Source of the DNA: Daucus carota subsp. sativus | Taxonomy: Eukaryota; Streptophyta; Magnoliopsida; Apiales; Apiaceae | Reading direction: 5' to 3' | NCBI RefSeq assembly: GCF_001625215.2 | Contig: NC_030387.2 | Coordinates: 39,703,606-39,767,605 of the forward strand | Length of the DNA stretch: 64,000 bases | Part shown: piece by piece, positions 27,767 to 51,215 of the stretch | Numbering within the stretch: position 1 is the first letter of the stretch | How the letters are laid out: each line of letters starts with the position of its first letter | Made by a program: the position numbers and the translations under genes | Notes under the pieces: model-generated | Databases searched by the model: none | What the model saw: the letters and a program-made list of their open reading frames with translations, nothing else | What the model was told of the DNA's origin: nothing

Positions 27767-27818
27767 GTCCCACATCGAGACCAGAATAGAGAATAGATTG
27801 AAAGAGGAGTATATTTAC
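27767..27818 (+). promoter_or_regulatory. USE and TATA of the U1 variant gene
   Basis: GTCCCACATCG at 27767-27777 is an exact plant snRNA upstream sequence element (RTCCCACATCG). TATATTTAC starts at 27810, leaving a 32-bp spacer. That is the Pol II geometry; Pol III (U6-type) promoters are about 10 bp shorter. Confidence 0.85.
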
Positions 27819-27841
27819 AAGGGGGTGGGAGCCTTGAAAAC

Positions 27842-27999
27842 TTACATACCTGGACGGGGTCAATGGGTGATCATGAAGGCTCATGGCCTAGGCAAGTGGC
27901 CTTCATTGCACCTCTCGAAGGTGCACTAGCCTAACATCTCCTTATGGAGACTGTACGTCTTAATTTCTGGTAGTGGGGGCCTGCGCTTGCGCGGCCCCT
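27842..27999 (+). ncRNA. U1 snRNA variant with altered 5' splice-site recognition sequence
   Basis: U1 snRNA pairs with 5' splice sites to start spliceosome assembly. This copy keeps the U1-70K loop (GATCATGAAG, 27870-27879), the U1A/U2B''-type loop (ATTGCAC), a stem III (TCTCC-TTAT-GGAGA), an Sm-like site AATTTCTGG (27962-27970) and a strong stem IV (GGGGCC...GGCCCC). Stem I pairs through changed bases on both sides (ATGGG/CTCAT against ATGGC/GGCCAT in the 51-kb copy), which suggests selection on structure. The 5' end is TTACATACCTGG, where the canonical copy in this window has TTACTTACCTGG: nucleotide 5 is A, not U. The start is set by promoter spacing (32 bp from TATA) and alignment to the canonical copy. 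The 3' flank (CTAATATATCC) has no good 3' box. It may be functional or a decayed gene. Confidence 0.8.
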
Positions 28000-28139
28000 T
28001 CTAATATATCCAAACTTTTATTCCTTAATACATTAAATTAATTAATTAATTAATTAATACATTATTAAATTTATCATAAGGTTTTTTAGTTGGCAAATCA
28101 CAGGCCCAGTGAGAGTTGAGTTTTGTGGGTATGTTTGTG

Positions 28140-28189
28140 TTCCCACATCGAGAAAATGAGAGAATAGGGGATGGGAGGAGCTATAAGAT
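28140..28189 (+). promoter_or_regulatory. USE and TATA of the chimeric U1-like gene
   Basis: TTCCCACATCG at 28140-28150 differs from the USE consensus only in its first base. TATAAGAT starts at 28182, a 31-bp spacer. The same promoter occurs at 37115-37165 and 46407-46458. Confidence 0.75.
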
Positions 28190-28213
28190 GAGAGGAAGAT
28201 GCAACGTAGAGGA

Positions 28214-28434
28214 TAAGGCACGCACTTGGCGTCGATGGCTGATCGATAAGGGCCGAGGCTTCCTTACACTGAGGACGGTCTGCCCGATTGGTAGATATGC
28301 CTACGTCCTAATTTGTGGCGTCGATGGCTGATCAATAAGGGCGTGGCCTAGGTTTGAGGCTTCCTTGCCCAATTGGTAGATATGCCTACGTCATATTTTG
28401 TGCTAAGTGGAGCCTGCGTTCGCGCAGCTCCACG
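28214..28434 (+). ncRNA. U1-derived chimeric snRNA-like gene (two fused U1 bodies)
   Basis: Promoter spacing places the start at 28214. The first 17 bases are TAAGGCACGCACTTGGC instead of the U1 5' end, and the U1 body begins at GTCGATGGCTGATC (28231). After an Sm-like TAATTTGTGG (28309-28318) a second body restarts at GTCGATGG (28320) and runs through its own Sm-like stretch to a full stem IV (GGAGCCTGCG-TTCG-CGCAGCTCC). The U1-70K and U1A loops are altered in both bodies (ATCGATAAG and ATCAATAAG; CTTACAC and CTTGCCC). It is probably a non-functional or diverged U1 relative. The first body matches the 37.2-kb copy and the second the 46.5-kb copy. Confidence 0.7.
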
Positions 28435-28573
28435 CCAAATCTATTCTAAATTTTCTTTATAGCAAGTAGCACAACTTTGTTTTTGATTTCAGCAAGTAGT
28501 CTGACTAATTTTTATCTGACAAAGTTAATTTTGATAAAACACAATATTCTTAATCAAATGACAACTCAAGAGA

Positions 28574-28623
28574 AACCCACATCGCAAGGTTAATAAACAC
28601 AGACGGAAGCTCAGCTATAAGAA
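28574..28623 (+). promoter_or_regulatory. USE and TATA of the U5 gene
   Basis: AACCCACATCG at 28574-28584 matches the USE apart from one base. TATAAGAA starts at 28616, a 31-bp spacer of the Pol II type. Confidence 0.8.
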
Positions 28624-28648
28624 TTCACTAGCCCCCGTTGTTTAAAGC

Positions 28649-28772
28649 ACGCAGCCATGTGGTGAGCACAAAACGAACTATTCTTTCGCCTTTTACTAAA
28701 GAATACCGTGTGCTCGCCACCCACAGTGGCATACGCCTATTTTTGGAGAGTTGTTCCTTTGGACCAACTCCT
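28649..28772 (+). ncRNA. U5 spliceosomal snRNA
   Basis: U5 aligns the two exons in the spliceosome through its loop I. The invariant loop CGCCTTTTACTAAAG is intact at about 28686-28700. It sits on a long stem whose base pairs GGTGAGCAC with GTGCTCGCC. Then come a small hairpin (CCAC...GTGG), the Sm site CTATTTTTGGAG (about 28736-28747) and a 3' hairpin (GAGTTG...CAACTC). A 3' box-like CAATACGAGTCTTAA follows at 28774-28788. All parts look functional. The exact 5' end is uncertain by a few bases (28649-28653). It lies about 570 bp upstream of the U4 promoter in the same orientation. Confidence 0.9.
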
Positions 28773-29261: not shown

Positions 29262-29311
29262 AGCCCACATCGCTTGTGAGAAAAAGCTTGTCTAAAACTA
29301 ATCTTTAAAGA
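29262..29311 (+). promoter_or_regulatory. USE and TATA-like box of the U4 gene
   Basis: AGCCCACATCG at 29262-29272 is a one-mismatch USE. A weak TATA-like TTTAAAGA lies at 29304-29311, with a 31-bp spacer. The RNA starts about 33 bp further on. Confidence 0.7.
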
Positions 29312-29336
29312 CTAAAGAAAGTTGAAGTAATAAAGC

Positions 29337-29495
29337 ATCTTTGCGCTTGGGGCAATGACGCAGCTAGTGAGGTACTAACCGAGGCGCGTCAATTGCTGGT
29401 TGAAAACTATTTCCAAACCCCCTCCTTGGCCTTGGTTCTGCCTTGTGCCATCGAGAATTTCTGGAAGGGCTCCCTCTAATCCAGGGTAAAGCCCT
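29337..29495 (+). ncRNA. U4 spliceosomal snRNA
   Basis: U4 base-pairs with U6 and keeps it inactive until activation of the spliceosome. The RNA begins ATCTTTGCGCTTGGGG and holds the stem II region that pairs with U6, the 5' stem-loop with its kink-turn (CAATGACG...CTAACCGAGGCGCG, the 15.5K site) and the stem I region (TTGCTGGTTGAAAACTATT). Then follow a central domain, the Sm site AATTTCTGG (29457-29465) and a 3' hairpin (AGGGCTCCCT...AGCCCT). It looks complete and close to the plant U4 I remember. A degenerate 3' box (CAACTCTAGTCTTTAA) follows. The same spacer that follows U2 at 37.87 kb follows this U4 at about 29.63 kb. Confidence 0.9.
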
Positions 29496-30160: not shown

Positions 30161-31149
30161 TATTTGCCGTTAATAGCTGTATATAATTTCACATTGGAAA
30201 CATATGATGGAAGAGAGAAAGAAGAAAACGAAACCAAAGCGGCTAAGTAAATGAATCTGCATCTATTCATGAGGAGAGAAATGAAGTCTTGTCAACCAGC
30301 TGGGCCTTGTAACGGGGACCTGTAACTCGAGTGAGAGCTTTAAGTTGGTTGGAGTTTGGCTTTGTCCAGACGGTCGGGCTCTGCTGAGATATGTACAGGC
30401 TTGCCCATTCCAAGTATGGAGTTGTGCCTTGGCCACTGAGTGAAGACTCGGGGGTCAGGGTCACTAAAGTGGAAGGCACAGCGCTAGGCTGGCTTCACAG
30501 AGCAGCGATCACTTCCCTCTCTTGTCGGTGGAAGGATAACAAGCTTGTTCTTGGCAAGTCCAATTAACACCCGATGGACCACTCAAACCAACAACCATCT
30601 TTTTTTGGCTCGAAAATAATCCTCAAGCTATATTTTTGTGCACCTTAGACTAAATGAGAACAAGCTTCTTTTTGCTGCAGGTGCAATTATAGTGAAGTAT
30701 TGCTTCATTAGTATCTTGCTCTCCCTGTTTTCTGTAATTCACTTGTATGTTTTTTACCCCAACCGATAACACTACAATGACATACTAATAAGTGATTTAG
30801 TAGTTTGAGTTTGATCACTTAAACTTCAGTTATAGAACTTTACAAGCCAAAAAAAGCAATGTGCTTATATTTTTCAGTAATAGTTGCATATAATATCACA
30901 AAGGAACATATGAGGGAAAAGATTAAGATGAAAATGAACCACCTAGGCTAAGGAAATGAATTTGTATCTCTTCATTTAGGCTGGATGAATGTCATTCAGC
31001 TAGCTGAGCTTGGTAGCTTGGGCTTGTCACTCGAGCGAAAGCTTTGAGTTGGTTGGAGCTTGTCTTGTTCCAGACGGTGGGGTAGAAGAGCAGCATGATA
31101 TGGCAAGGCCACCGAACACCTAATGGACCAAGTTAAACCAACAACCAGT

Positions 31150-31745
31150 TTTTTTTATGTTTTTTTGCATCTTTGGTGAGGCTCTCGTTTTTTATGTTTT
31201 TTTTTTTTTTTTTGCATGACTCTCGGTAGCTGAGTTAGCATGTAATAAATGGTCCATGTAGCTGAGTTAGCCCGTAACAAATGGACCAACAGCGAGCCAG
31301 GATCAAAGTTTCGGAACCAATAACATTTTTTATTGCACCTTGATGTGACTCTTGGTAGTTGAGTTAGTCTGTAATAAGCGGCAAGTGAAACCAACAACCA
31401 ATTTTCATTTTTTTGCATCTTGATGAGACTCAATAAAGCTGAGTTAGCCTGTAATAAGTGGACCAACGGCGAGCTGAGATTGAAGCTTCGGAGCCAAAAC
31501 GAAATGCCACAATTTTTATTTTTATTTTGCACCTTGATGAGACTCCCGGTACCTGAGTTATCCTGTAATAAGTGAACTAACGGCGAGCCAGGATAGAAGT
31601 TCCGCAGCCAAAATGAAATGCCACATTTTTTTATTTTTTTTTAATCTTGATGAGACTCTTGGTACTTGGTAGCACTACGTTGTAAGTGGATCAACAACGA
31701 GCCATGATCAAAACTTCAGAGCCAAAACGAAATTCCACAATTTTG
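31150..31745. repeat. Tandem repeat family B (about 110-bp unit), about six copies
   Basis: Each unit has GCACCTTGATGAGACTC, GTAGCTGAGTTAG, CTGTAATAAGTGGACCAAC, GCGAGCCAGGAT and a T-run after AAACGAAATGCCACAA. Copies start near 31167, 31214, 31336, 31414, 31528 and 31643. The paralogous array at 48975-49590 has the same order, and both are followed by the same flank (31746-31920 and 49592-49740). Confidence 0.8.
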
Positions 31746-32003
31746 TGGAATCAACATATGAGATTTTCGCTATATAAAGGAATGTTTGGTTCCTTGCGTT
31801 ATGCAGCTTATTTGTCAACCATAAATAAATTTGTGCTTGAGTCAGTTAAATGTGTGTTTCTAAGATTTCATTTAAATTTGACCTCTTTTATATATGGTGC
31901 AGGTTTAGCAGGGGTTTTAGCCTAGGTAAGCTTCTCCAAGTTTCGTATAAGCGTAGTTTGTAGAATAGGGCATTGGTAATACTTGATAGATATACCCTTA
32001 AGA

Positions 32004-32077
32004 ACCCACATCGATAAGGGACCAAAACATCAGCCTAACAGGGAACCCTTAAGAACTCTTTACTTCTTTAAATATTA
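32004..32077 (+). promoter_or_regulatory. Orphan U1-type promoter without a U1 body
   Basis: AACCCACATCG at 32004-32014 and its flank (ACCAAAACATCAGCCTAACAG) match the promoter of the canonical U1 gene at 50965, and so does the upstream 100 bp. Homology fades after CAGGGA, the TATA box is lost, and a Stowaway MITE begins where the U1 RNA would start (ATTAC|TCCC). No U1 sequence follows the MITE. Confidence 0.75.
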
Positions 32078-34656: not shown

Positions 34657-35331
34657 TGTGAAAATACTTCTTAAATAAAATTACAAAATGCCATTTCTTT
34701 AATATCTTTTGAAAAATCATGATTGAACTTTGCAAGTTGCAACCACTTGCAACTTTGAAAAAGTACTATTAGAATTTTCAGATAAGATGAGTGCCTTGCT
34801 GTATAAATGCCCTATATTCTATTAAATACCGGCAAGCAAAGTAATTAAGGAAGGATATATTAAAATTTAAAGTTTTTTCAAGTTAAATTTTTTTTTATCA
34901 ATTTTGTATTATTTATATGATTTTCTTTTAATTTATGGGACTTTTGAGTTCACAAAGATGTTTTTTATATGCACATATCATTTTAAATTAATACATAACA
35001 TATAATGCAAACAAAATAGAATACATGTTCACTCAGGGATCTCAAAATTCAAGCTGGAAGGCAAAATTTTTTTAGCCCGAGTCAGTGGCAGATCCTGGGT
35101 CCGCCCCTGCGGTGAAGTAGGTGTAAATATCATCTTCAACAAATCACGTGATTTTATCACCGAGAAGAATGGATTAATCAATGATTGTTTCTGTGTTTTG
35201 TTTGTTCGACGCGACTGTTTATATACATGTCGTATGGCTTTTTATTGTTGAAATAACTCATTTATCAAAAAAAAAAATTAAATTTTAAGAACAATATGAT
35301 TAAATTAGTTCTAAATAAATGTAGGTATGTC
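34657..35331 (+). repeat. Repeat module X, copy 1 (about 675 bp)
   Basis: This module (GAAAATACTTCTTAAATAAA ... TAAATGTAGGTATGT) recurs at 36057-36748 and 45352-46040 with only scattered differences. Near its end it has CAGTGGCAGATCCTGGGTCC, a motif common in plant dispersed repeats, and an A-run after CATTTATC. The family is unknown to me; it could be a retroposon tail. This copy ends where module Y begins. Confidence 0.7.
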
Positions 35332-36056
35332 TTGTTAGGTAAGATTAGCCTGTTTTTCTTAAATCTTGGCATTAGTTTATTGTTTTTTCGGATCTAAGGA
35401 TTCCAAGCATTTTCCGATTTGACCTACTTTTTCTTATATCTCGATTTCACGGAGCTACGGATTTCTCGTTCTTCCCAGTGATTTTGTACTTGAAAGTGGT
35501 CCGAATTATTTTGTTTATGTGGATTTGTTCCCCGGATTTAAGGATTGTTTTGGTTTAGTCTAGTACTTGTTTACCCATTTGCAAATTTAAGGTCGTTAGT
35601 TTGTCGCGTTTTGTTTGCGTTTGATATAGTTTTTTGTTGTCTCACCGTTTGTGTGAGTTTTGTTATTTTCTCACCATTTGTGTGAGTATGATGATTGATT
35701 TGGTAAAAAAAGTTGTCAGAGGATTGCATTCTCGGTCGATAGCTCAAACTGGTTATGACGGAAGCGAAAGCGGAGGAGTATGTGTAAATATCATCTTCAA
35801 CAAATCACGTGATTTTATCTCCGAGAAGAATGGATTAATCAGTGGTTGATTATGTGTTTTGTTTGTTCGACGCGACTGTTTATGTAGATGCCGTATGGCT
35901 TTTTATTATTGAACTAACTCATTTATCAAAAAAAATTAAGGTTCAAATTTTAAAAACAATATGATTAAATTAATTCTAAATAAATGTAGGTATGTCTAGT
36001 TGTGTAATTTAAATTACAAAATTACAAAATACTTCTTAAATATCTTTTTTTTTTGT

Positions 36057-36748
36057 GAAAATACTTCTTAAATAAAATTACAAAATGCCATTTCTTTAAT
36101 ATCTTTTGAAAAATCATGATTGAACTTTGCAAGTTGCAACCACTTGCAAGTTTGAAAAAGTACTATTAGAATTTTCAGATAAGATGAGTACCTTGCTGTA
36201 TAAATGCCCTATTTTCTATTAAATACCGGCAAGCAAAGTAATTAAGGAAGGATATATTAAAATTTAAAGTTTTTTCAAGTTAAAAACTTTTTTATCAATT
36301 TTGTATTATTTATATGATTTTCTTTTAATTTATGGGACTTTTGAGTTCACAAAGATGTTTTTTATATGCACATATCATTTTAAATTAATATATAACATAT
36401 AATGCAAACAAAATAGAATACATGTTCACTCAGGGATCTCAAAATTCAAGCTGGAAGGCAAAATTTTTTTAGCCCGAGTCAGTGGCAGATCCTGGGTCCG
36501 CCCCTGCGGTGAAGTAGGTGTAAATATCATCTTCAACAAATCACGTGATTTTATCACCGAGAAGAATGGATTAATCAATGATTGTTTCTGTGTTTTGTTT
36601 GTTCGACGCGACTGTTTATATAGATGTCGTATGGCTTTTTATTATTGAAATAACTCATTTATCAAAAAAAAAAAAAATTTAAATTTTAAGAACAATATGA
36701 TTAAATTAGTTCTAAATAAATGTAGGTATGTCTAGTTGTGTAATTTAA
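36057..36748 (+). repeat. Repeat module X, copy 2
   Basis: Second copy of the module described at 34657, inside segmental duplication A. Its right part includes CAAATCACGTGATTTTATCA and ends AGGTATGTCTAGTTGTGTAA. The preceding module Y shares the same 3' end, so X and Y form a head-to-tail pair. Confidence 0.75.
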
Positions 36749-37114
36749 AACAACAAGTTATTAACTTGTATTCTTTTTAAAATATGTAAATTTGAAATAG
36801 CTTAAAAATAACATAAAATTTTGAAATTACATAATTCCTGTAAAATCATTTAAAATATTCTAAATTTAATCAAATAAAAAGTATTATGAGATTAAATTAT
36901 ATATAATTATACAACCATCCACTATATAATTTTTTGCGTAATTTAACTTTAGAATAAATAATAATTTTTAAGAATTACAATATACATTTTATTTGGTGCA
37001 TTGAATTGTTACATGAAATTGTGATGAGGAGATAGCAGAGATACACATTAACAAGGGTTATTAGTTGGCAAAGCACAGGGCAAGTGAGAGTTAAGTTTTG
37101 TTGGTATGTTTGTG

Positions 37115-37165
37115 TTCCCACATCGAGAAAATGAGAGAGTAGGGGATGGAGAGGAGCTATAAGAT
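37115..37165 (+). promoter_or_regulatory. USE and TATA of the U1-like gene, copy A
   Basis: TTCCCACATCG at 37115-37125 and TATAAGAT at 37158-37165, 32 bp apart. The USE differs from consensus at its first base. Confidence 0.75.
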
Positions 37166-37189
37166 GAGAGGAAGATGCAGCGTACAGTA

Positions 37190-37329
37190 TAAGGCACGCA
37201 CTTGGCGTCGATGGCTGATCAATAAGGGCCGAGGCTTCCTTACACTGAGGATGGGTACTCGCCTATGGTCTGCCCGATTGGTAGATATGCCTACGTCATA
37301 ATTTGTGCTAAGTGGAGCCTAGCTCCACG
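37190..37329 (+). ncRNA. U1-derived snRNA-like gene, copy A
   Basis: Promoter spacing puts the start at 37190. The first 17 bases, TAAGGCACGCACTTGGC, replace the U1 5' end at exactly the same length, then GTCGATGGCTGATCAATAAG and a U1-like body follow. The Sm-like site CATAATTTGTG is kept. Stem IV is reduced to a perfect hairpin GTGGAGC-CTA-GCTCCAC. A 3' box, CAATTCTAGTTCAA, lies at 37331-37344. The U1-70K loop (ATCAATAAG) and the U1A loop (CTTACAC) are changed. It is either a decayed U1 or an RNA with another role. Confidence 0.7.
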
Positions 37330-37469
37330 ACAATTCTAGTTCAACTTTATTTAATTTTAACATTTATTAGTTACTTCGCATGCTGGGTTCTGAAGGAGCT
37401 AGGACGATTGCATAATCTGAAACCAGTGCTTTGACATAACTTGGTTATGTTTTTCAACCTAGTTGATTT

Positions 37470-37519
37470 GTCCCACATCGAAAGATAGAAGAATTGTTTG
37501 TTCCAGTTTTGTATAAAAG
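37470..37519 (+). promoter_or_regulatory. USE and TATA of U2 gene A
   Basis: Exact USE GTCCCACATCG at 37470-37480, 31-bp spacer, TATAAAAG at 37512-37519. The RNA starts 32 bp after the TATA start. This is a textbook Pol II plant snRNA promoter. Confidence 0.9.
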
Positions 37520-37543
37520 CTGAGCGGACCTTTGTTGAAAGGC

Positions 37544-37739
37544 ATACCTTTCTCGGCCTTTTGGCTAAGATCAAGTGTAGTATCTGTTCTTATCAGTTTA
37601 ATATCTGATATGTGGACCATTGGTTCACACGATATTAAATTTATTTTTTCAGGGGGAAGTTCCGTCACAGTAGCTTGCTGCTGGGTTCTTCATGTGTCGC
37701 CTTAGCGTTGCACTATTGCTTTGGCCTGGCACACCCCAC
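37544..37739 (+). ncRNA. U2 spliceosomal snRNA, copy A
   Basis: U2 pairs with the intron branch point. The 5' end ATACCTTTCTCGGCCTTTTG, the branch-point recognition stretch GTGTAGTATCTG, stem IIa (TTATCAGTTTAATATCTGAT), the Sm site (ATTTATTTTTTCAGG) and the 3' CTGGCACACCCCACC are all present at the usual length of about 196 nt. Stem IIb reads GTGGACC...GGTTCAC where the plant U2 I remember has GTGGGCC...GGCCCAC: both sides changed together and pairing is kept. Stems III and IV have diverged more. A 3' box (CAAATCTAGTTTAA) follows. It differs from copy B at one base. Confidence 0.93.
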
Positions 37740-37753
37740 CAAATCTAGTTTAA
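37740..37753 (+). terminator. 3' box of U2 gene A
   Basis: CAAATCTAGTTTAA matches the plant snRNA 3'-end signal CA(N)n-AGTNNAA and lies directly after the U2 end. Copy B has CAAATCTAGTTGAA at 46985-46998. Confidence 0.75.
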
Positions 37754-38099
37754 ATTTGTTGTTCTTGGAACATAAAGAATAGAAGCAAAGTGGCCCCGAT
37801 ACATAGGTTATTTGCTAAGAATGAATCAAACCTTGGTCACTGCATATTAATTGACCTTTGAAAATATGTATATACTTTGTGCTAAAGAAAATCTAAAGAC
37901 CTACAACTCTGACATCCTTGATCAACTTACTAGGTCCTCACCCTTAATCAAGTTAAGGTTAGCTTCAACTCAATCTTAATCAAGTTACTACATCCTCACC
38001 TCTTAAAGCAACTGAACCTTGTCAAAGTTTTGTTTCTAGAAAGATTTAAAATCCTAGGAATAGTACATAGCAAAGGGAGTGAAGTATCTTGCTTTCCCT

Positions 38100-38500
38100 A
38101 TTTTCCATAATTCACTTGTATGTTCTTTTTACTTGGCCGATGACACCACGACGACATACTAATTAGCGATTTAGTAGTTCGAGTTTGATCACTTAAAACT
38201 TATGTTATGGAACTTTACAAGCCAAAAAGCCATGTGTTTCATGTTTTACGTAATTCACTTGCATGTTTTTACTTGACTGATGACACCCCAACGACATACT
38301 AATTAGCGATTTCGAGTTTGATCACTTAAGTTATGGAACTTTACATGCCAAAAGGCCATGCCCTTCATGTTTTACGTAATTCACTTGCATGTTTTCACTT
38401 GACCGATGACACCACAACGACATAATAATTAGCCATTTAGTAGTTCGACTTCGAGCACTTAAGTTATGGAACTTTAAAAGGCCGTGCACTTCATATTTGC
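38100..38500. repeat. Tandem repeat family A, three copies
   Basis: Copies of the 126-140-bp unit described at 29905 start near 38131, 38271 and 38397. Internal length differences come from loss of the TAGTAGTTCGAG part in the middle copy. Confidence 0.8.
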
Positions 38501-38905
38501 CGTTAATTGCAGGTGAAAAAATGACTGAACCTTGACAGTGGATGAGTAGTTAGGAATGTTTAGAGGCACTCCACAGAGCTTGAAATACACTGAGAGATCA
38601 AGCTCAATGTAAACCTTGGGAAACTTCAGAATCAAAGCTCAATGTAACAGCATTCATCCAAGGACATAAAAAGAAAACGCGTTCTAGTGTTTGCTACTGA
38701 AGTTCTGCAAACATGGCGCAATGGGGTCTGATATCCACATTTGTACTTGGGTATTATCTATCCGAAGGATACAATTCTGGAGAAATCTCCGAAAAACATA
38801 TTTGAACCCGGGAAGAATGAATAATCACCAGTTAAACACTAAATCAAGTTTAAATTTAAATATGTTTCAATCCTTAACAAAATTGTAAGAAAGATATATA
38901 ATAAT

Positions 38906-39010: not shown

Positions 39011-39049
39011 ATATATCCAAACTTTTATTCCTTAATACATTAAAATACA

Positions 39050-41564
39050 CTAGCGTTTTATCCGTGCTACGCACCGAATGGTTATTTTTATAAAATAAAA
39101 ATAAATTCGTATATTTATAAATTCAAGTATATATTGTTTTATCAATTATATAATTTTATTACATAATATAGGTATTTTTTTCAAGAAAATAATATTATTT
39201 CTTAAATACTCTAATCAACACCCTCGTATTATATGAAATGAAATAACCGTATTTTCTTTTCAAACAAATATTATATAAGGATCGACTATCGTTTAGAGAT
39301 CATGGAATGTGATTCCTGCTCCCAGTTTCGGACCCAAAATCTGAATTCTCTCAGATTCATAATGATTTTTGAATTTGCACCGATGTTGATCTAAATTAAT
39401 TTGCTTTTACATTATGAAATATTGAAAACTAATAAGAGAAAAAAAATGTACATATAAAATTATGTTATTGTCAACAATTATGTAATATTTATGTATGAAT
39501 TTTTTCTGCAGTATATATGAGGATTGGGGAGGCCGTTAGAGAATAGGGACGAGAGCGAGGCGAGTAATTTCAGGGTCATAAATTATTTCAATTTCCCGTA
39601 TTAAATAAAGTAATGTCAGATTAAGGTCGATCAGGTCGGGTGGATGCATCCCCTGATATCCGTCATAATTATTATAATATATAATTTAATTAATTTGTAC
39701 GCACAAAATTCATTTATATACGCATGACTATTCTTTGTAGCCATATTTTAGAAATTTTGTATGCACTTAACTTATTTATGAAGTAATATAAATTATTAAA
39801 TTCAATGGAACATGCTGTAAAAGTATAAATTTGAACAAATTTACTTATGTAAATAAGATTTTATAAATTTAAAAAGAAAAAACATATTTTATTTTTATAT
39901 CTATTTTAATCACCGACATAATGAAAATTTTGTCCTATTAATTATAAAGTCACTGTGATATTTCTATATTGATCATTCTGGATGCTAACTTGTGTTTATT
40001 TATATTATTTCTCTCATTATAATTATAAATTTACACTTATTAAAATGATACATGTATGTCACGTGATACATGTTAATATTTTAACCACCGCAACAAAAGG
40101 AAACGATTTTTTTGTCATCAAGTAAATAAAAAGCTCATTCTAATCTGTAGGATGTGGAGACTCGCATAATTAAAAAAAGATTTATCGAATTGATATAAAA
40201 TTAGAAATATTGATTAGTCATACAAAAATTTATGGGTGGACTCGTATAAAATTATATTAATTTTTACAATTATATGTAATATATATGTATATTTTTTTTT
40301 TATAATATATATGAGAATTGGGGAGCTAGTTAGAGAATGGGGACGCGAGCGGGCGAGTAATTTCAAGGTCATGATGTTTTTCAATATCGCTTGTTGAATA
40401 AAGCAATGTTGGGTTATAATCACTTTGAGATTTATGAAAACTGGTCATTCTCAAAGCTAACTTGTGTTTATTTTATATTATTTCTCACATTATAATTATA
40501 TATTTATAGTTATGAAAATGATGTTTATATTAGCTGAGTGTGAATTTAATTTTATAAAATAGAAAATATTTAATTTTATATCATATAATACTCGAAAGAC
40601 CATGCACGTCATGTAATACATGTTAATATTTTAACCACCACAAACGAAGGAAACTATTTTTTTTATCCTATCAAGTAAATAAAAAGCTCATTCTAATATG
40701 TAGGGGGTGGAGACTCGTATAATTTTTTTAAAAAAAGAATTTATCAAATTGATCTAAAAATATACATATTGATTAGTCATATAAAAAATTTCGGGACTCT
40801 ATTTTGTTATAAAACTATCTAAAGTTAACGAATAAATATCATTGGCCTAAATAAGAAATGATATTTGATTGGTAGTAAATTAATTCCTCTTTTTTGATTG
40901 GTTAACATCCTAAAATAATTTATTTTTTCTTAAATTGAATTGAATTAAATTAAATTACTTAAAGTAAATCTCAAATTCTATTATTATCTTAAATGATTTT
41001 TAATTAGATAATGAAAAGGAGTCTAATTAGTTGAGTTATAATCAGATAATAAAAAGGAGTTGATTAATTATATTGTATAATAAAAAATTGTATTGATTAA
41101 CTCATGATTAACTTGTATGTGGTTAATATTTTGGATAAATTTTAATGGAAGAAAAGTCGGATAATGAATATTATTAGTGCTAAAATAATTTTCTTTTCCT
41201 CATTGGTCAACCACATACGGTGGTTTAAGAAAAGTTGAAGAATAAATATGATTGGTCTAAAATTTAGGGATGACTTCTGATTGATCCTAAAATAATTCCT
41301 ATTTTCTGATTGGTTAACTGCATACAGTGGTAGATGAAAAGTTGGATAATGAATTTGATTGGTCCAAAATTTAGGAATGACATCTGATTGGTCCTAAAAC
41401 AATTCTTATTTTCTAATTGGTTAACTGCATACCGCCGTAGAAGGAAAGTTGGAGAACGAATATGATTGGTCTAAAATTTAGGATTGGTGTCTGATTGGTC
41501 CTAAAATAATTCCTCTCTTCTGATTGGTTAACCTCATAGTGTGGTAGACTCAAGTATTATAGGA
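39050..41564 (-). mobile_element. Non-autonomous Helitron, 2515 bp
   Basis: Read on the - strand it begins TCCTATAATACTTGAGTC (41564) and ends with a hairpin (CGGTGC-GTA-GCACGG-like), a short spacer and CTAG (39053-39050). It sits between A and T, as Helitrons do. The U1-variant flank at 28002-28080 offers an empty-site comparison: the two sides (CCTTAATACATTAAA and TTAATACATAAATTTATCAT) are contiguous there. No Rep/helicase frame is present. Inside, a roughly 115-bp unit (TCTGATTGGTCCTAAAATAATTC) repeats in tandem at about 40840-41540, and 39505-40200 is repeated at 40300-40800. Confidence 0.75.
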
Positions 41565-41722
41565 TATGATTAATACATAAATTTATCATAAGTATTTAAA
41601 TTAAATATAAATATGATGAGTAAATTACATGGGTGTAATTAAAATGTAAATTATTACTAGAATCTTGAATATAAAAAGGTTCAAATTTTAACTTCTTCTA
41701 TCAACTTCTGTTAACCCTAATC

Positions 41723-43490
41723 TGTAACACCCCACTTTTACAATAGGGCTAAACAATTTAACAATTCTAAATTCATTCGGAAATATGATAATTTAGCAAA
41801 CCAATTGTCATAATAAAGTCTGAAACTGCATAATAATAAATCCAACAAAGTCTTAGATCAACATGAATATAAGTTCTAAAGTCTTATTAGCCCCTAACAA
41901 AAAAGAAACTAGAGTGGGTGTCACTCATCACTCTCCCCGCTACCCCTGATTACCTGCGGAAAGGAAACAAACGGGAGTGAGCCAATGCCCAGTACGAATA
42001 TAAAATAATGTAGGTGCGAGGAGTATCAATAATCTCGAAACAATAATTTCAATAAGTTGGTACAAATAAGTACTTCAAGCAACAATAATCGAGATAAACA
42101 ATAAGACTCAAAGATGAATAGATGACACAATGTGGGTCTCTTACACAAAACTGTACTTGCTCAACTCCAATCACCGAGCAAATACAGGACAATGATTTTT
42201 TCTTCGGCTATCCACAAGAAGAAACAAAGAATGTATAAAACATTCCACAAAACAATAACGATCATGATCTTCTCACGTCTCATACCCCAGAGACGTGCTC
42301 GTATGCTTAAATCACCGATACGAGTTGGTGTCTAGTTCACCTTTACTACGAACTCCATGTGAACATTGTCCGTGATTTACCCACACGGATCAGTTTAAGA
42401 GCCCAAACAATTACAAAAGTTGCCGACTCAATGAACAAATATATATACAATGATGTGATAATAAAACGAAAGGAAACAATATGAGTTGAGGCAACAATAA
42501 TTCAAATATATAGAGGCCAAGTGAAAAGAGTAGTGTGCAATAACAAACGAGATTTTAAGAATGTCACAATAATAAATATAATAAATATTTATTATTTAAA
42601 TAAAAGGAGAGAAAGAAATAGAATCCGTACCTCGATAATAATAATCAATCCAAAAATTGACTCGTCGCTGCTCCTTATTAATCTAACCAAATTCATTTAA
42701 GTAATTAGCGATATAATATTATCAGTACATCCAGATCATATACAATCACCGGTTAATAGTCACAGAATAGTACATAGCTACCATTATTATTAAATATAAT
42801 CCATGACTGTACTACCCACACTCTGTACCTCGAATATGGCCACTGGCAGGAAGAATACTAAGTTAAATTGAAAACAATACATGCAACTTCTTATAACAAA
42901 TAATTTAGTAAAACTCATATTAGTTTGCAAATAATTATTAGCACATCAGGCTTCTGCATTAACTTTCCTAAACCCATTTGAATACAAAATCTAGAAATCA
43001 CGTCCACGTAAATACCAACAAGTGTTATAGTTTATTATTCCAATAATAAATAAAATACATGATAGTATTGTCGATTCAAAATAATCATGTAGATATTATA
43101 ATACGAAATTTCACAGCTATAATGTCAAAATAATTTTAATTAATATACTGCCTCAACCATAAAATAAATAATATAAAATAATCCATATTTTAATGTCACC
43201 CCTCCCAAGCAAAACAAAACAAATTACACAGAATAATGCAAATCCTTGTTCTAAAATATGAAATAAGCAATGTGAACTTAATTTTATTATATACAAATTC
43301 CAGCCCGCAAGAGAATGCTTCAATCAACCAAAATCAGCATGTCTTACATGCTTGTCGAAAAGAATAGATAATTTGTATAAAAATGTGTTTAATCTATCAC
43401 ATATATTCTATCAAACACAAATTTAAAAATAATTAAAATATAATCTCAATAAAAGAAAAGAATGTAACAATTAAAATCAATTTTATTTTG

Positions 43491-43522
<32 letters not shown>

Positions 43523-44507
43523 ATATAATTAATGAATTATAGAAAATTGGATTTTAAAATCTATGAATTAATTACAAAATTCAAATAAACAGTATGTGCA
43601 ATATGGCATGTGCCATTGTTAAACTGCCCAAAATAGATCATCATATGCAGTAAGCTACATTAACACATAAGAACCAAAACAGTAGCCAATTCTCACCGAC
43701 CAAACATTTAAATCTCAAAATCATAAATCTAGTAATTAACACAGCATTCAACAGCCGCTCACAAATATATGCCCTATACTAAATAACACATTACAATATA
43801 TAAAAAAAATTATATTACCACGTGAATATCATGACTTGACAATAATATTATCAAATCATTACTAATGCATGCATACTAACAAAATCTGGCTAAATAATTA
43901 CAAGCTTATTTAGTGATTAAAATACATATTAAATATACAAGAAATTCCACTTACCTTAATTAAGAGATCCCCCGAAGAATATATAGCAACAAGTACGAAT
44001 AATTATAAACCTGAAAAATGGACGATCATTAATGTAATCCTAATATAATGTAGTGGTGTATTTAAATATAAATATTAAAAATCACACCTCTTTAACAATA
44101 GGCACCCTATACTATAATAGTGCAGAGGCTTCTTCCACTTTTATTAGTCTAAGACTCTATTCTGTATTGTAACTTTAACACAGGTGATGCCCTGCTTGCA
44201 CACGGAAGAATCACACCACGCCTCTGTTGATTAACACCGGTCTTCCTTGTTATCTTACACTATACTAGTTAATATTTATACTGCTATATAGATAAGTACG
44301 GGGTAATTTAGGATTAAAACTAGAGTTGTAAAAATAAATATTACTACTTATCAACTTCCTAAATTTGGGTCAAGCATACTTATCTAAACAAGAGTCATGT
44401 ACTCTATCTAAAACAAATTTGCACTATTATAAAATATTAATTATTATAACAATAAACATAAATCAAGTAAACATAGTTAATAATTACTAAAATATTGGGA
44501 TATTATA
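41723..44507. mobile_element. Probable solo LTR of a gypsy-type element, 2785 bp
   Basis: Starts TGTAACACCCCA and ends TGGGATATTATA, imperfect short inverted ends of the kind seen in plant gypsy LTRs. It is flanked by perfect 5-bp duplications TAATC (41718-41722 and 44508-44512). No gag-pol sequence, primer site or second LTR is seen, so it is best read as a solo LTR or non-coding derivative. It contains an (AT)n run near 43490. It is inserted into the 5' part of module Y. The weathered ends point to moderate age. Confidence 0.6.
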
Positions 44508-46406
44508 TAATCTCTCAGCCGCTCCTCTTTCTTCCTGCTTAGAAGCCCCCGGGGCTTCCACCGCCGGTGGAAAGTCCCAGAACTTTTTATTTGTTTTGTG
44601 TTTTTCTTCTTTCAATAAACTCTTTCTTGTTAGGTAAGATTAGCCTGTTTTTCTTAAATCTTGGCATTAGTTTATTGTTTTTTCGGATCTAAGGATTCCA
44701 AGCATTTTCCGATTTGACCTACTTTTTCTTATATCTCGATTTCACGGAGCTACGGATTTCTCGTTCTTCCCAGTGATTTTGTACTTGAAAGTGGTCCGAA
44801 TTATTTTGTTTATGTGGATTTGTTCCCCGGATTTAAGGATTGTTTTGGTTTAGTCTAGTACTTGTTTACCCATTTGCAAATCTAAGGTCGTTAGTTTGTC
44901 GCGTTTTGTTTGCGTTTGATATAGTTTTTTGTTGTCTCACCGTTTGTGTGAGTTTTGTTATTTTCTCACCATTTGTGTGAGTATGATGATTGATTTGGTA
45001 AAAAAAGTTGTCAGAGGATTGCATTCTCGGTCGATAGCTCAAACTGGTTATGACGGAAGCGAAAGCGGAGGAGTATGTGTAAATATCATCTTCAACAAAT
45101 CACGTGATTTTATCTCCGAGAAGAATGGATTAATCAGTGGTTGATTATGTGTTTTGTTTGTTCGACGCGACTGTTTATGTAGATGCCGTATGGCTTTTTA
45201 TTATTGAACTAACTCATTTATCAAAAAAAATTAAGGTTCAAATTTTAAAAACAATATGATTAAATTAATTCTAAATAAATGTAGGTATGTCTAGTTGTGT
45301 AATTTAAATTACAAAATTACAAAATACTTCTTAAATATCTTTTTTTTTGTGAAAATACTTCTTAAATAAAATTACAAAATGCCATTTCTTTAATATCTTT
45401 TGAAAAATCATGATTGAACTTTGCAAGTTGCAACCACTTGCAAGTTTGAAAAAGTACTATTAGAATTTTCAGATAAGATGAGTGCCTTGCTGTATAAATG
45501 CCCTATTTTCTATTAAATACCGGCAAGCAAAGTAATTAAGGAAGGATATATTAAAATTTAAAGTTTTTTCAAGTTAAAAACTTTTTTATCAATTTTGTAT
45601 TATTTATATGATTTTCTTTTAATTTATGGGACTTTTGAGTTCACAAAGATGTTTTTTATATGCACATATCATTTTAAATTAATATATAACATATAATGCA
45701 AACAAAATAGAATACATGTTCACTCAGGGATCTCAAAATTCAAGCTGGAAGGCAAAATTTTTTTAGCCCGAGTCAGTGGCAGATCCTGGGTCCGCACCTG
45801 CGGTGAAGTAGGTGTAAATATCATCTTCAACAAATCACGTGATTTTATCACCGAGAAGAATGGATTAATCAAGGATTGTTTCTGTGTTTTGTTTGTTCGA
45901 TGCGACTGTTTATATAGATGTCGTATGGCTTTTTATTATTGAAATAACTCATTTATCAAAAAAAAAAAATTTAAATTTTAAGAACAATATGATTAAATTC
46001 GTTCTAAATAAATGTAGGTATGTCTAGTTGTGTAATTTAAAACAACAAGTTATTAACTTGTATTCTTTTTAAAATATGTAAATTTGAAATAGCTTAAAAA
46101 TAACATAAAATTTTGAAATTACATAATTCCTGTAAAATCATTTAAAATATTCTAAATTTAATCAAATAAAAAGTATTATGAGATTAAATTATATATAATT
46201 ATACAACCATCCACTATATAATTTTTTGCGTAATTTAACTTTAGAATAAATAATAATTTTTAAGAATTACAATATACATTTTATTTGGTGCATTGAATTG
46301 TTACATGAAATTGTGATGAGGAGATAGCAGAGATACACATTAACAAGGGTTATTAGTTGGCAAAGCACAGGGCAAGTGAGAGTTAAGTTTTGTTGGTATG
46401 TTTGTG

Positions 46407-46458
46407 TTCCCACATCGAGAAAATGAGAGAGTAGGGGATGGAGAGGAGGCTATAAGAT
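46407..46458 (+). promoter_or_regulatory. USE and TATA of the U1-like gene, copy B
   Basis: TTCCCACATCG at 46407-46417 and TATAAGAT at 46451-46458, 33 bp apart. Confidence 0.75.
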
Positions 46459-46482
46459 GAGAGGAAGATGCAAGGTACAGTG

Positions 46483-46604
46483 CAAGGCACGCACTTGGCG
46501 TCGATGGCTGATCAATAAGGGCGTGGCCTAGGTTTGAGGCTTCCTTGCCCAATTGGTAGATATGCCTACGTCATATTTTGTGCTAAGTGGAGCCTAGCTC
46601 CACC
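46483..46604 (+). ncRNA. U1-derived snRNA-like gene, copy B
   Basis: The predicted first 17 bases are CAAGGCACGCACTTGGC, one base different from the other two copies, then GTCGATGGCTGATCAATAAG and a shortened body of the second (28320) type. Sm-like CATATTTTGTG and the compact hairpin GTGGAGC-CTA-GCTCCAC close the RNA. The 3' box CAATTCTAGTTCAA is at 46606-46619. Confidence 0.65.
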
Positions 46605-46714
46605 ACAATTCTAGTTCAACTTTATTTAATTTTAACATTTATTAGTTACTTCGCATGCTGGGTTCTGAAGGAATGTCCAATTGCTTGAAACTACACATTA
46701 AAGTCTAATGATTT

Positions 46715-46764
46715 GTCCCACATCGAAAGATAGAAGAATTGTTTGTTCCAGTTTTGTATAAAAG
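46715..46764 (+). promoter_or_regulatory. USE and TATA of U2 gene B
   Basis: GTCCCACATCG at 46715-46725, 31-bp spacer, TATAAAAG at 46757-46764, RNA start 32 bp later. The proximal promoter is the same as in copy A, but the sequence upstream of about 46700 differs from the matching place in copy A (37385-37460). Confidence 0.9.
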
Positions 46765-46788
46765 CTGAGCGGACCTTTGTTGAAAGGC

Positions 46789-46984
46789 ATACCTTTCTCG
46801 GCCTTTTGGCTAAGATCAAGTGTAGTATCTGTTCTTATCAGTTTAATATCTGATATGTGGACCATTGGTTCACACGATATTAAATTTATTTTTTCAGGGG
46901 GAAGTTCCGTCACAGTAGCTTGCTGCTGGGTTCTTCACGTGTCGCCTTAGCGTTGCACTATTGCTTTGGCCTGGCACACCCCAC
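46789..46984 (+). ncRNA. U2 spliceosomal snRNA, copy B
   Basis: Identical to U2 copy A over about 196 nt except one base (TTCTTCACGTG here, TTCTTCATGTG in A), in the loosely conserved 3' domain. It has the branch-point recognition GTGTAGTATCTG, the Sm site and the same compensated stem IIb. The promoter and 3' box are intact, so both copies are probably expressed. Confidence 0.93.
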
Positions 46985-47339
46985 CAAATCTAGTTGAAAT
47001 TTGTTCTTCTTGGAACATAAAGAACAGAAGCATAGTGGCCACGATACATATAAGAATGAATCAACAATGCACAACCTTCGTCACTGCATATTAATTGACC
47101 TTTGAAAATATGTATATAGGTTGTGCTACAGAAAATCTAAAGACCTACAACTCTGACATCCTTAATCAACTTACTAGGTCCTCACCCTTAATCAAGTTAA
47201 GGTTATCTTCAACTCAATCTTAATCAAGTTACTACATCCTCACCTCTTAAACCAACTGAACCTTGTCAAAGTTTTGTTTCTAGAAAGATTTAAAATCCTA
47301 GGAATAGTACATAGCAAAGGGAGTGAAGTATCTTGCTTT

Positions 47340-47740
47340 CCCTATTTTCCATAATTCACTTGTATGTTCTTTTTACTTGGCCGATGACACCACGACGACA
47401 TACTAATTAGCGATTTAGTAGTTCGAGTTTGATCACTTAAAACTTATGTTATGGAACTTTACAAGCCAAAAAGCCATGTGTTTCATGTTTTACGCAATTC
47501 CCTTGCATGATTTTACTTGACTGGTGACACCACAACGACATACTAATTAGCGATTTCGAGTTTGATCACTTAAGTTATGGAACTTTACATGCCAAAAAGC
47601 CATGCCCCTCATGTTTTACGTAATTCACTTGCATGTTTTTACTTGACCGATGACACCACGACGACATAATAATTAGCGACTTAGTAGTTCGAGTTTGAGC
47701 ACTTAAGTTATGGAACTTTAAAAAGCCATGCGCTTCATAT
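47340..47740. repeat. Tandem repeat family A, copy-B array
   Basis: Three units of the 126-140-bp repeat, in the same arrangement as at 38100-38500. Confidence 0.8.
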
Positions 47741-48974
47741 TTGCCATGGATAGCTGTATATAATTTCACACTGGAAACATATGAATGAAAAGGGAAAGAA
47801 CAAAACGAAACCACATCGGCCAATTAAAGGAACATGCATTTCTTCATGTAGAGAGGAATGAAACTTCGGCTACCAGCTCGGTCTTGTAGCGGGGGCCTGT
47901 AACTCAAGTTAGAGTTTTAAGCTAGTTGGAGTTTGGCTTGGTCCAGAAGGTCGGGCTCTGCTGAGATATGCACAGGCTTGCCCATTCCAAGTATGGAGTT
48001 GTGCCTCAGCCACTGAGTGAAGGCTCCCTCTCTTGTCGGTGGAAAGAAAACAAGCTTGTTCTTGGCAAGTCCAATTAACACCTGATGGACCACTCAAACC
48101 AACAACCATCTTTTTGGCCTGAAATAATCCTCAAGCTATTTTTTTGTGCACATGCAGCTTACCTATCCGACCATAGATATATTTTTTGTTTGTGCTTGAA
48201 AATGTCAAGCAAAAGTTTTTCTTCTCGTAGTCTCAACTCAATGACTGTACAGAAACTTTTACTGTTGAGAACATACTAATCCACTTGACTTTGATGTAAA
48301 CTGACAAAGGCACAAAGCACTCTTCAGGCAAGTTAAAGTTCTTGTATGTTTAAAAATCTTGGTATCTATAGCTGATAAGTGTTCACCCATCTTCAACTAC
48401 ATCCTTATTTGTCAAAGCAATTAAACTTAGTCTGCAACTTAGGGTCTATCCATGTAGTGTACCAGTGTGCATCCTGACTTGGGTTGGGGGAGATTGTTTT
48501 TGCAGCAGTTGCAATTATGGTGAAGTATTACTTTGTTAGTATCTTGCTTTCCCTATTTTCCGTAATTCACTTGTATGTTTTTTATCCCAGCCGATGACAC
48601 CACAAAGACATACTAATAGGTGATTTTGTAGTTTGAGTTTGATCACTTAAACTTCAGTTATGGAACTTTACAAGCCAAACAAAGCCATGTGCTTCATAAT
48701 TTTCGTTAATAATTGTATATAATATCACAAGGGAGACATATGACGGAAAAGATAAAGATCAAAACGAACCAAATCGGCTAAGGAAATGAATTTGTATCTC
48801 TACATTTTAAAAGGATGAAAGGTCTTTGACCAGCTGAGCCTAGTAGCTTGGGCTTGTCACTCGAGCGAGAGCTATGAGTTGGTTGGAGTTGGTCTTTGTC
48901 TAAATGGTCCTTGGTGTAGAAGATCAGCATGAGATGGTTAGTCCATCAACACCCAGTTGACCACTTACAGCAAC

Positions 48975-49590
48975 AACTAATTTTTTTTTGGATCAGAGCT
49001 TCGGTGCCAAAACGAAATGCCACAATTATTTTTTGGTTGTTGGTGTAGAATAGCAGCATGAGATGGCAAGTCCATCAACACCCAGCTGACCACTTAGAAC
49101 AACAACCAATTTTTTTTTTGCATCTTGATACTCTCGTAGTTGAGTTAGTCTTTAATAAGTGGAACGGCAGCGAGCCAGGATCGAAATTTCGGTGCCAAAA
49201 ACGAAATGCCACAATTTTTTTTTTTGGCACCTTGATGAGATTGCAACCAATTCGATTTTTTTTTGCATCTTGATACTCTCGTAGTTGAGTTAGTCTATAA
49301 TAAGTGAACCAGCGACGAGCCAATATCGAAGCTTTGGTGCCAAAACGAAATGCCACAATTTTTTTATTTTTTTTTGCATCTTGATGAGACTTTCAGTAGC
49401 TGAGTTATCTTGTAATAAGTAGACTAACTGCGAGCCAGGATCGAAGCTTCGGAGTCAAAATGAAATGCCATGGTTTATTTATTTTTGGACCTTGATGAGA
49501 CTCTCGGTAATACTGAGTTGTTAGTGGACCAACAGGCAACAGTGAGCCAGGTTCAAAACTTCGGAGCCAAAACGAAATTCCACAATTTAT
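48975..49590. repeat. Tandem repeat family B, second array
   Basis: Five to six degenerate copies of the 110-bp unit described at 31150, with starts near 49121, 49228, 49264, 49376 and 49488. Copy lengths vary more than in the first array. Confidence 0.75.
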
Positions 49591-49869
49591 TGGAATCAAC
49601 ATACAGAATGAGATTTTAGCTATATAAAGAAATGTTTGGTTCCTTGCGTTGTGCAGCTTACTTATCAATAACAGATAAACTTGTGCTTGCATCACTTTAA
49701 TGTGTGCTTCTAAGATTTCATTTAAATTGATATGATCTCCAGGTACTATAGCTGTTTCAATGTGATTTTATTGTTTTGCAGTGAAATATTATGTCAATAA
49801 AAGCTTGTGTTCGTTGAAGGATCACCGAAAAATTGGGCTTAGGAATCTCTAAACTCTCAAAAGATGGCA

Positions 49870-50498
49870 TCTATACTATACTATAAAAGCTAATATGGGT
49901 ATAATTTGTAGTCCAGTTATATTTTTTGGTTTAGTACATTCCCTCTAAAACTACAAGTTTACAACATGTGGAGGTCTGTTATTCTTACATTGTTAAATAG
50001 TTTTAAATACTAAAAACACTCATGACAATACATTAATTATCATATAATATTTTATAAAAAAAATTATGATGATGTTAAAAATAATCTTATAAATATCCAA
50101 TTTTGAATATCTTTTTTGATAAGAACCTTCATATAACTTTGTTTAACTCAAAAGTGTTCTCTTTTAGTACAAACACTAACTATTACGTAACCTTTTCTAA
50201 CTCCAATACGTTACATGATAAATATCTTTTTCATACGTAGGAAGATTTACGAAATATGAAAATCTAATTTAAAATTAATTAAATAATAAATTATCACGTA
50301 TTAATAACAGAAAAATATTTATAAATAGATAATAAATTGTAAAAAATATATTTTCGTGAGAAAGTATAATAATCAGTTGGTTATAATTTAATTAAATTCA
50401 CCTCATTAATACTAAAATATTAATAAAACGAAGTTAAAAATTAAATAATAAATTATGAATAATATATCCGCCTGTGCTTCGCACGGGTTATAGGCTAG
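49870..50498 (+). mobile_element. Non-autonomous Helitron, 629 bp
   Basis: Begins TCTATACTATACTATAAAAG after an A and ends with a hairpin (CCTGTGC-TTC-GCACGGG), ten bases and CTAG followed by T. These are the typical Helitron termini (5'-TC, 3' hairpin plus CTRR, A/T insertion). It has no coding frame. The paralogous spacer at 31.9 kb lacks it. Confidence 0.8.
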
Positions 50499-50964
50499 TA
50501 ATTATAAATCTTGGATCGAGTCTTTCTATTGCACTTTCAACCAATGTGTTTAAACAGTTCTCTTGTCTCAGTTGGATACATAGACAAATAATCTCGATAT
50601 AACATAGACAAAATAATCTCGATATAACTAGGGATATGATAATCTATTTGCACAATCAAAAACTATATCAATTGAAACAATTACTGCAGGTTTGGTGTCG
50701 TTGAAAAACAATATACATACTAGAATATTATAGCTAACAAAACTAATTTAATTTATAAAATATCTGGGACCAGAAGTTAAAATAATAAACTTTTTTTTGA
50801 ATGTTCAAAGATAAAAGAAGTTGATTCTTTCAAGTATATACAATACTAAAAAACAGTCACTGATCTTTTCGGTCTAGCAGGGGTTTTTAGGCTCTTCAAG
50901 TTTTGTATAAAGCATGGTTTGTAGAATAGGGGCATGGTTAATACTTGAAAGATATACCCTTCCG

Positions 50965-51015
50965 AACCCACATCGAGAAGGAACAAAACATTAGCCTAAC
51001 AGGGACCTATAAATA
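50965..51015 (+). promoter_or_regulatory. USE and TATA of the canonical U1 gene
   Basis: AACCCACATCG at 50965-50975, a 32-bp spacer and TATAAATA at 51008-51015. Its upstream 100 bp are paralogous to the orphan promoter at 31900-32030. Confidence 0.85.
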
Positions 51016-51039
51016 AAGAGGAGGATGCAGCCTTTCAAA

Positions 51040-51203
51040 TTACTTACCTGGACGGGGTCGATGGCTGATCAAGAAGGGCCATGGCCTAGGTTAGAGGCTT
51101 CCATTGCACTGAGGAAGGGCTCTCGCCTAAGGTCTACCCAAGTGGTGGAGCCTACGTCATAATTTGTGACAGGTGGAGCCTGCGTTCGCGCAGCTCCGCG
51201 CCA
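51040..51203 (+). ncRNA. U1 spliceosomal snRNA, canonical 5' end
   Basis: The 5' splice-site-pairing sequence ACTTACCTG is intact (51042-51050). The U1-70K loop GATCAAGAAG, the U1A loop CATTGCAC, stem III (CCAAGTGG...), the Sm-like site ATAATTTGTGA and stem IV (GGAGCCTGCG-TTCG-CGCAGCTCC) are all in place, and the length of about 164 nt is right. A 3' box-like CAATTCAGTCTTAA follows at 51202-51215. It starts TTAC rather than the usual AUAC. This is the best candidate for a working U1 gene here. Confidence 0.92.
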
Positions 51204-51215
51204 ATTCAGTCTTAA

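Follow-up and report, generated by a model that had tools for sequence, protein, structure and literature searches.

How a single stretch of the carrot genome comes to carry genes for four of the five major small nuclear RNAs (snRNAs), close together and all on one strand, is the question raised by the locus described here. It lies in the 64-kb window that was analysed (the whole stretch of DNA, positions 39,703,606 to 39,767,605 of contig NC_030387.2 of Daucus carota subsp. sativus; coordinates below count from its first letter). We put a probability of about 0.8 on the answer that this is a birth-and-death array of small-RNA genes in Daucus, controlled by the upstream sequence element (USE) and duplicated in tandem as blocks, in which the distance from USE to TATA box sets the RNA polymerase.

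The window was scanned with Rfam cmscan at gathering thresholds and, in a second pass, at a relaxed cutoff of E<=1. Seven matches reach the gathering level, and all seven are on the + strand between 27.8 and 51.2 kb. Six are snRNA genes: a U1 variant at 27767..28001 (body 27842-28001; 119.2 bits), U5 at 28574..28769 (body 28653-28769; 93.6 bits), U4 at 29262..29493 (body 29337-29493; 101.3 bits), two copies of U2 at 37470..37739 (U2a; body 37544-37739; 170.9 bits) and 46715..46984 (U2b; body 46789-46984; 171.6 bits), and the canonical U1 at 50965..51215 (body 51040-51200; 145.4 bits). A sequence-only reading of this DNA had called the same six genes complete and on one strand; none of them falls below threshold when the covariance models are run on the window, and the observation of an snRNA cluster is confirmed. 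Both U1 genes (51040 and 27842) start with UUAC... where the Rfam consensus has AUAC..., and the true start may lie upstream. The seventh match, overlooked in that reading, is a full-length gene for the signal recognition particle (SRP, 7SL) RNA at 30234..30606 (SRP1; body 30299-30602), which covers positions 1-305 of the Plant_SRP model with 208.1 bits against a gathering threshold of 105.

All 15 RNA features of the array are on the + strand, and 8 of them are degraded copies or stubs. The three U1 derivatives, U4 fragment and orphan promoter that had been picked out in that reading are all present, two as partial Rfam matches at E<=1 (below-threshold U1 matches at 28305 and 37198) and the others by self-similarity. 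U1 pseudogene A (28140..28434) has a USE and a TATA box followed by two partial U1 copies fused together, with the stretch 28305-28434 scoring 34.8 bits, below threshold. Pseudogene B (37115..37328; 28.8 bits, also below threshold) and pseudogene C (46407..46610) each have a USE, a TATA box and an exact 3' box; C is recognised by similarity alone and has no Rfam match even at E<=1. The U4 stub (38880..39010) duplicates the promoter region of U4 together with roughly the first 30 nt of its RNA, and is 94% identical to 29235-29366. The orphan USE (32003..32044) is a truncated copy of the canonical U1 promoter: the stretch 31902-32044 is 82% identical to 50871-51005. The remaining three degraded features are copies of the SRP RNA gene.

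No U6 match was found anywhere in the 64-kb window, even at E<=1. At the same cutoff, U6, tRNA and further families are absent from the cluster, with the sole exception of a weak mir-218 match at 38564 on the opposite strand; miRNA families give five weak matches in the window as a whole. No tRNA is found in the window by ARAGORN (bacterial code). Searched in other collections, the U1 pattern has two matches in genome_contigs, both in contigs with titles of bacterial metagenome-assembled genomes and without a match to the U1 model, and none in viral_contigs.

The promoters of the snRNA genes are uniform in layout. In plant U-snRNA genes transcribed by RNA polymerase II (Pol II), USE and TATA box lie about three helical turns apart, and Waibel and Filipowicz are said to have found, in 1990, that this spacing selects the polymerase in plants. 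A search for RTCCCACATCG with at most one mismatch gives 11 USE-like sites in the window, all on the + strand and 10 of them inside the cluster; 0.64 are expected from shuffled sequence. The eleventh, at 9281-9291 (+), has one mismatch and no RNA gene was found behind it. The USE had been placed 31-33 bp before a TATA-like box, and this is borne out at 9 of the 9 snRNA-type promoters measured (the three pseudogenes included, the orphan USE excluded). All six above-threshold snRNA genes have this spacing when TTTAAA is counted as the box of U4 and TATATTTA as that of the U1 variant; individual values are 32 bp for the U1 variant, 31 for U5 and 31 for U4 (TATA-like). From USE core to gene start the six measure 63-68 bp, with 32 bp between TATA and gene in the U1 variant, and each above-threshold gene retains its own promoter-like region.

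The 3' ends are less even. An excerpt of PMC5079582 gives the plant 3' box consensus as CA(N)3-10AGTNNAA. The box is exact downstream of U2a, U2b and pseudogenes B and C, which only 0.6-3.1% of shuffles equal. It is one mismatch off at the canonical U1, U5 and pseudogene A, a weak agreement that shuffles match in 13-31% of cases. At the U1 variant no 3' box was found, the best match having three mismatches, as in every shuffle.

Genes for SRP RNA are of another kind. Plant U6 and SRP RNA genes are type-3 genes of RNA polymerase III (Pol III), with USE and TATA box. Besides SRP1, three degraded SRP RNA loci with internal deletions match Plant_SRP below threshold, at 31003, 47876 and 48833: a copy at 30939..31156 (RNA 31003-31152; 58 bits), SRP2 at 47811..48115 (body 47876-48113; 85.6 bits against the gathering threshold of 105) and a copy at 48769..48989 (RNA 48833-48984; 47.6 bits). 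The first of these keeps its 5' and 3' ends, and 27 nt stand in place of 183 positions in the centre of the model. SRP2 has an exact USE core, CCACATCG, despite its internally deleted body. At all four SRP loci the USE-like core stands 56-57 bp from the gene start, and 22 bp before a TATA-like box, compared with 31-33 bp in the snRNA genes; the boxes are weak, and the pattern used to place them was picked after the sequences had been inspected. All four loci also have runs of 5-9 T at the very end of the RNA (seven in SRP1, five in SRP2, eight and nine in the copies at 31003 and 48833), compared with none of the six snRNA genes examined. No 3' box within two mismatches follows SRP1 or SRP2. 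These features set the SRP loci apart from the snRNA genes in the manner expected for Pol III. From the shorter distance between USE and gene start and the terminal T-runs, we conclude that the array is a mixture of Pol II-type and predicted Pol III-type genes.

This changes one part of the earlier picture. The sequence-only reading had described an array that mixes four of the five major snRNAs, apparently lacks U6 and has Pol II-type spacing, and so far it stands; it had also suggested that promoter spacing may keep out Pol III-type U6, but an exclusion of Pol III genes on that ground is not supported by the array, with its full-length SRP RNA locus and three degraded ones.

The two deleted SRP copies at 31003-31152 and 48833-48984 have a large central deletion in common but retain 5' domain, 3' end and T-run, an Alu-type outline. 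That they might be functional short RNAs of Alu-like form was considered and is rejected for now: they show no constraint, since their bodies are no more alike than their flanks (82% and 87%, p=0.2).

How the genes came together can be read from the block homologies given by self-BLAST of the window. A composite block is present in three shuffled copies. Copy A holds the U1 variant, pseudogene A, U5, U4, SRP1, a truncated SRP copy, 114-bp repeats and the orphan U1 promoter; copy B holds pseudogene B, U2, SRP-upstream repeats and the U4 stub; copy C holds pseudogene C, U2, SRP2, a truncated SRP copy, repeats and the canonical U1. Matching pieces of A and C are mostly 80-85% identical (29947-30449 with 47535-48026, 85%; 30663-31156 with 48491-48988, 84%; 31395-31878 with 49244-49728, 81%), and 29627-30143 is 80% identical to both 37869-38343 and 47113-47587. 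Copies A and B are closer around the U4 stub, with 92.5% identity between 28960-29238 and 38510-38786 and 94% between 29235-29366 and 38880-39010.

The most recent event is a tandem duplication at an offset of about 9.3 kb (35330-38501 and 44625-47745, together spanning 35330..47745), each copy of which carries a U1 pseudogene and a U2 gene. The copies are 95.9% identical by BLAST with gaps included, and differ at 50 of 3095 ungapped aligned columns, with local divergence from 0 to about 5%. Their similarity stops (at 38501 and 47745) about 20 bp past 126-bp tandem repeats (38198-38480 and 47345-47728); beyond this breakpoint copy B enters a U4-type spacer and copy C enters SRP2. A breakpoint so close to the repeats, followed by different sequence, fits unequal crossing-over between the repeats. 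Exchange over longer distances is indicated by a tract in pseudogene A (28316-28415) that is 100% identical over 100 nt to one in pseudogene C (46496-46595), 18 kb away, next to sequence that is 85.5% identical; we read this tract as pointing to recent exchange. The bodies of pseudogenes B and C are more different than their flanks (94% body identity, 98.5% flank, p=0.013), which would fit exchange there.

Such a duplication could in principle be an artefact, in which the assembly has set dispersed loci or two alleles side by side, and a 9.3-kb duplication with 0 to about 5% local divergence could indeed be two alleles end to end. The older duplications, at about 80% identity, cannot be alleles, and what lies downstream differs between the two copies, a U4 stub after U2a and SRP2 after U2b. 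Assembly collapse, the danger named in the sequence-only reading, looks unlikely because the copies diverge (by about 1.6% to 20%) and have different downstream sequence. We regard an assembly origin of the array as very improbable.

The likeliest origin of the array is a birth-and-death process driven by unequal crossing-over. Each intact gene would be its own unit, in which the USE recruits a SNAPc-like factor and the distance from USE to TATA box picks either Pol II (U1, U2, U4 and U5, ending at a 3' box) or Pol III (SRP RNA, ending at a T-run). A composite block of the order U1 - U2 or U5/U4 - SRP - SRP - U1 would have been duplicated in tandem again and again, while unequal crossing-over between short repeats reshuffled the blocks and left working genes among truncated copies. 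The suggestion that these genes may be amplified together is supported by the block duplications they have in common.

Four snRNA types plus SRP RNA at one locus, all 15 features on one strand, and a USE or USE-like core common to snRNA-type loci and Pol III-type SRP loci might also be expected of a co-regulated hub kept together by selection. The pooled USE genes would then raise the local level of a USE-binding factor, or anchor the locus at a Cajal body, and splicing and SRP RNAs would rise jointly. We find this improbable. Tandem duplication alone accounts for both the single strand and the proximity, and therefore no selection is needed for either; more than half of the features (8/15) are degraded copies or stubs, and an ordinary protein-coding open reading frame (ORF) sits inside the array. 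This ORF (33064-33996, +; 311 amino acids) is 99% identical to DCAR_0730098 of D. carota subsp. sativus (358 amino acids), a locus tag that may point to chromosome 7, and its relatives bear the name molybdenum cofactor sulfurase or that of aminotransferase class V.

Under the birth-and-death reading, the U1, U2, U4, U5 and full-length SRP genes would be active. A more sparing possibility is that the array is mostly a graveyard, with the main RNA supply coming from other loci and only U2 (perhaps also U1, U4 and U5) active here. In its favour, truncation affects 8 of the 15 features, the USE of SRP1 is weak, SRP2 has lost internal sequence, and no 3' box was found after the U1 variant. Plant snRNAs are moreover multi-copy: the part of PMC545797 drawn on here counts 10 U1, 17 U2, 14 U5 and 9 U4 genes as likely active in Arabidopsis. 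The genes for U1, U2, U5, U4 and SRP1, on the other side, score well above their Rfam thresholds, and U2 has exact USE, TATA and 3' box. We hold the graveyard to be unlikely, if the least so of the alternatives to an array with several working genes.

The two U2 genes allow a test for constraint. Across promoter and body they differ at only 1 of 270 sites, compared with 12 of 380 in the 3' flank (p=0.011) and 7 of 106 in the near 5' flank (p=0.0007); against the whole block the contrast has p=0.007 if the promoter is included and 0.057 if only the RNA is considered. Between the U4 stub and U4, divergence is not significantly different from that of the flank (p=1). SRP1 and SRP2 differ at 17 sites; the base of the Rfam consensus is found in SRP1 at 11 of these, in SRP2 at 4 and in neither at 2.

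Several of these data weigh against a reading with working genes and a polymerase choice set by spacing. The conservation of U2 over its near flanks may be recency, because the far 5' flank is just as conserved (4 of 728 sites, p=1.0). The slower change of SRP1 than of SRP2 is not significant (p=0.12, gapped columns dropped), nor is the higher identity of their bodies (93%) than of their flanks (89%, p=0.10). SRP1 may be a weak or failing gene, of uncertain activity: its USE core has two mismatches, the joint worst of the four SRP loci, and its TATA-like box is weak, with no clear TATA. The after-the-fact choice of the SRP TATA-like pattern belongs here as well, as do the one-mismatch 3' boxes of U1 and U5, which shuffling the same stretches reproduces in 13% and 31% of cases, and the irregular 3' box of U4.

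The U1 variant at 27842 raises a question of its own. It does not keep the canonical 5' end: it has ACAUACCU where canonical U1 has ACUUACCU. The former complements AGGUAUGU and the latter AGGUAAGU, so that by a single change, U5 to A, the complement of GUAUGU replaces that of GUAAGU. An Sm-like AAUUUCUGG is present. Variant and canonical U1 differ at 45 model columns, the Rfam base being found in U1 at 22, in the variant at 17 and in neither at 6; by this split the variant has departed not much faster than canonical U1 from the eukaryote-wide Rfam consensus.

Its stems have been compensated. In the model alignment 16 pairs are changed, 7 of them by double compensatory substitution, and 2 of 46 are newly broken; with the same substitutions scattered at random, 12.0 +/- 1.6 pairs would be broken, and 0 of 5000 simulations gave so few. 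Since the model alignment leans towards structure, the count was repeated on a structure-blind MAFFT alignment, with 17 pairs changed, 7 double and 4 of 44 broken (random 13.5 +/- 1.8; again so few in 0 of 5000). As a control, the three U1 pseudogenes have no double changes, and 3, 5 and 3 of their 8, 9 and 8 changed pairs are broken, where 4.3, 6.0 and 4.2 are expected at random; this control covers 24-31 of 44 pairs, and A and C share the identical tract and are not independent. The compensated stems, unlike those of the pseudogenes, indicate that for some of its history, after its split from canonical U1, selection very probably acted on the variant as an RNA.

A bolder proposal is that the gene makes a real variant U1 snRNA that pairs perfectly with AG/GUAUGU, a dedicated plant U1 for introns with +4U, maintained through the compensation of its stems in an array of USE-controlled genes. 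In Arabidopsis fio1 mutants, according to excerpts of PMC11732430 and PMC9803359, less-used 5' splice sites tend to have +4 A and more-used ones +4 U, which makes a +4U-matched U1 a sharp but unproven idea. Counting against it, no 3' box was found, the window has one copy of the variant, past constraint is not proof of present use, and the excerpt of PMC11732430 argues that U1 pairing does not decide the choice of 5' splice site. We therefore consider the proposal doubtful; if the variant is expressed, it would become testable whether plants read +4U 5' splice sites with a second U1. Human variant U1 snRNAs (PMC5159530, PMC13172311) are likewise U1 paralogues with sequence changes. The carrot gene differs from them in being a plant gene with an altered base in the part that reads the splice site and with compensated stems.

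Other repeats and genes lie in and around the array. Degenerate tandem repeats of 114-115 bp, without an Rfam match, follow each truncated SRP copy (31253-31744 and 49100-49600). A repeat of about 690 bp is found in three copies, 97.5% alike (34654-35342, 36051-36743 and 45345-46035), upstream of the units of U1 pseudogene and U2, and a 107-bp tandem repeat (3.5 copies, 41173-41548) lies in a very AT-rich stretch between the two U2 units. A GRAS protein is encoded at 2705-4303 (-); its identity is 98% with a protein of Daucus carota and 87% with one from Heracleum, which, like the 99% match of the ORF inside the array, is in keeping with a carrot origin of the DNA or one from a near relative. 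By Pfam, the flanking ORFs encode an AMP-binding enzyme (18934-20004), an adenylate kinase (53732-54280) and a LOB domain (57023-57400), all on the - strand.

In grouping snRNA genes of several kinds at short distances on one strand, the carrot array is like known plant snRNA clusters. Ten such clusters are described in Arabidopsis, seven of U1-U4, one of U2-U5 and two single-type tandems, and Wang and Brendel (2004) suggest duplication of an ancestral U1-U4 pair (PMC545797, in the part drawn on here). The mixed clusters of that source resemble the carrot array in having snRNA genes close by with USE and TATA box, and U1 upstream of U4. They hold two types each, with U1 and U4 180-300 nt apart, and their listing, in the same part of the source, names no SRP RNA; the carrot array has four types and SRP RNA as well, with its blocks shuffled over 23 kb and truncated copies among them. 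The five-snRNA cluster of Symbiodinium, in an excerpt of PMC4083563, also brings several snRNA types together, but this is a dinoflagellate and its cluster includes U6, whereas in carrot no U6 was found and SRP RNA is present. The SRP loci resemble the plant telomerase RNA gene, a type-3 Pol III gene (excerpt of PMC6765143), in their USE or USE-like core, their shorter-than-Pol II spacing and their T-run end; they differ from type-3 genes in their weak TATA-like boxes and in that three of the four are degraded. In the literature searched, no plant cluster combining four snRNA types with SRP RNA was found described, a weak negative, with most subscription papers, including the early work on tomato, potato and pea snRNA genes, outside its coverage. 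As far as the available parts of PMC545797 and PMC4083563 go, the comparison supports the view that the carrot array exceeds the one- and two-type plant clusters they describe. The presence of four snRNA types and SRP RNA suggests that genes of two polymerases with a common upstream element can be carried and multiplied jointly, and the array provides a set of natural promoters whose differences lie mainly in spacing and end signals. It is of a known kind, that of the plant snRNA clusters, but larger, and it mixes Pol II-type with Pol III-type genes.

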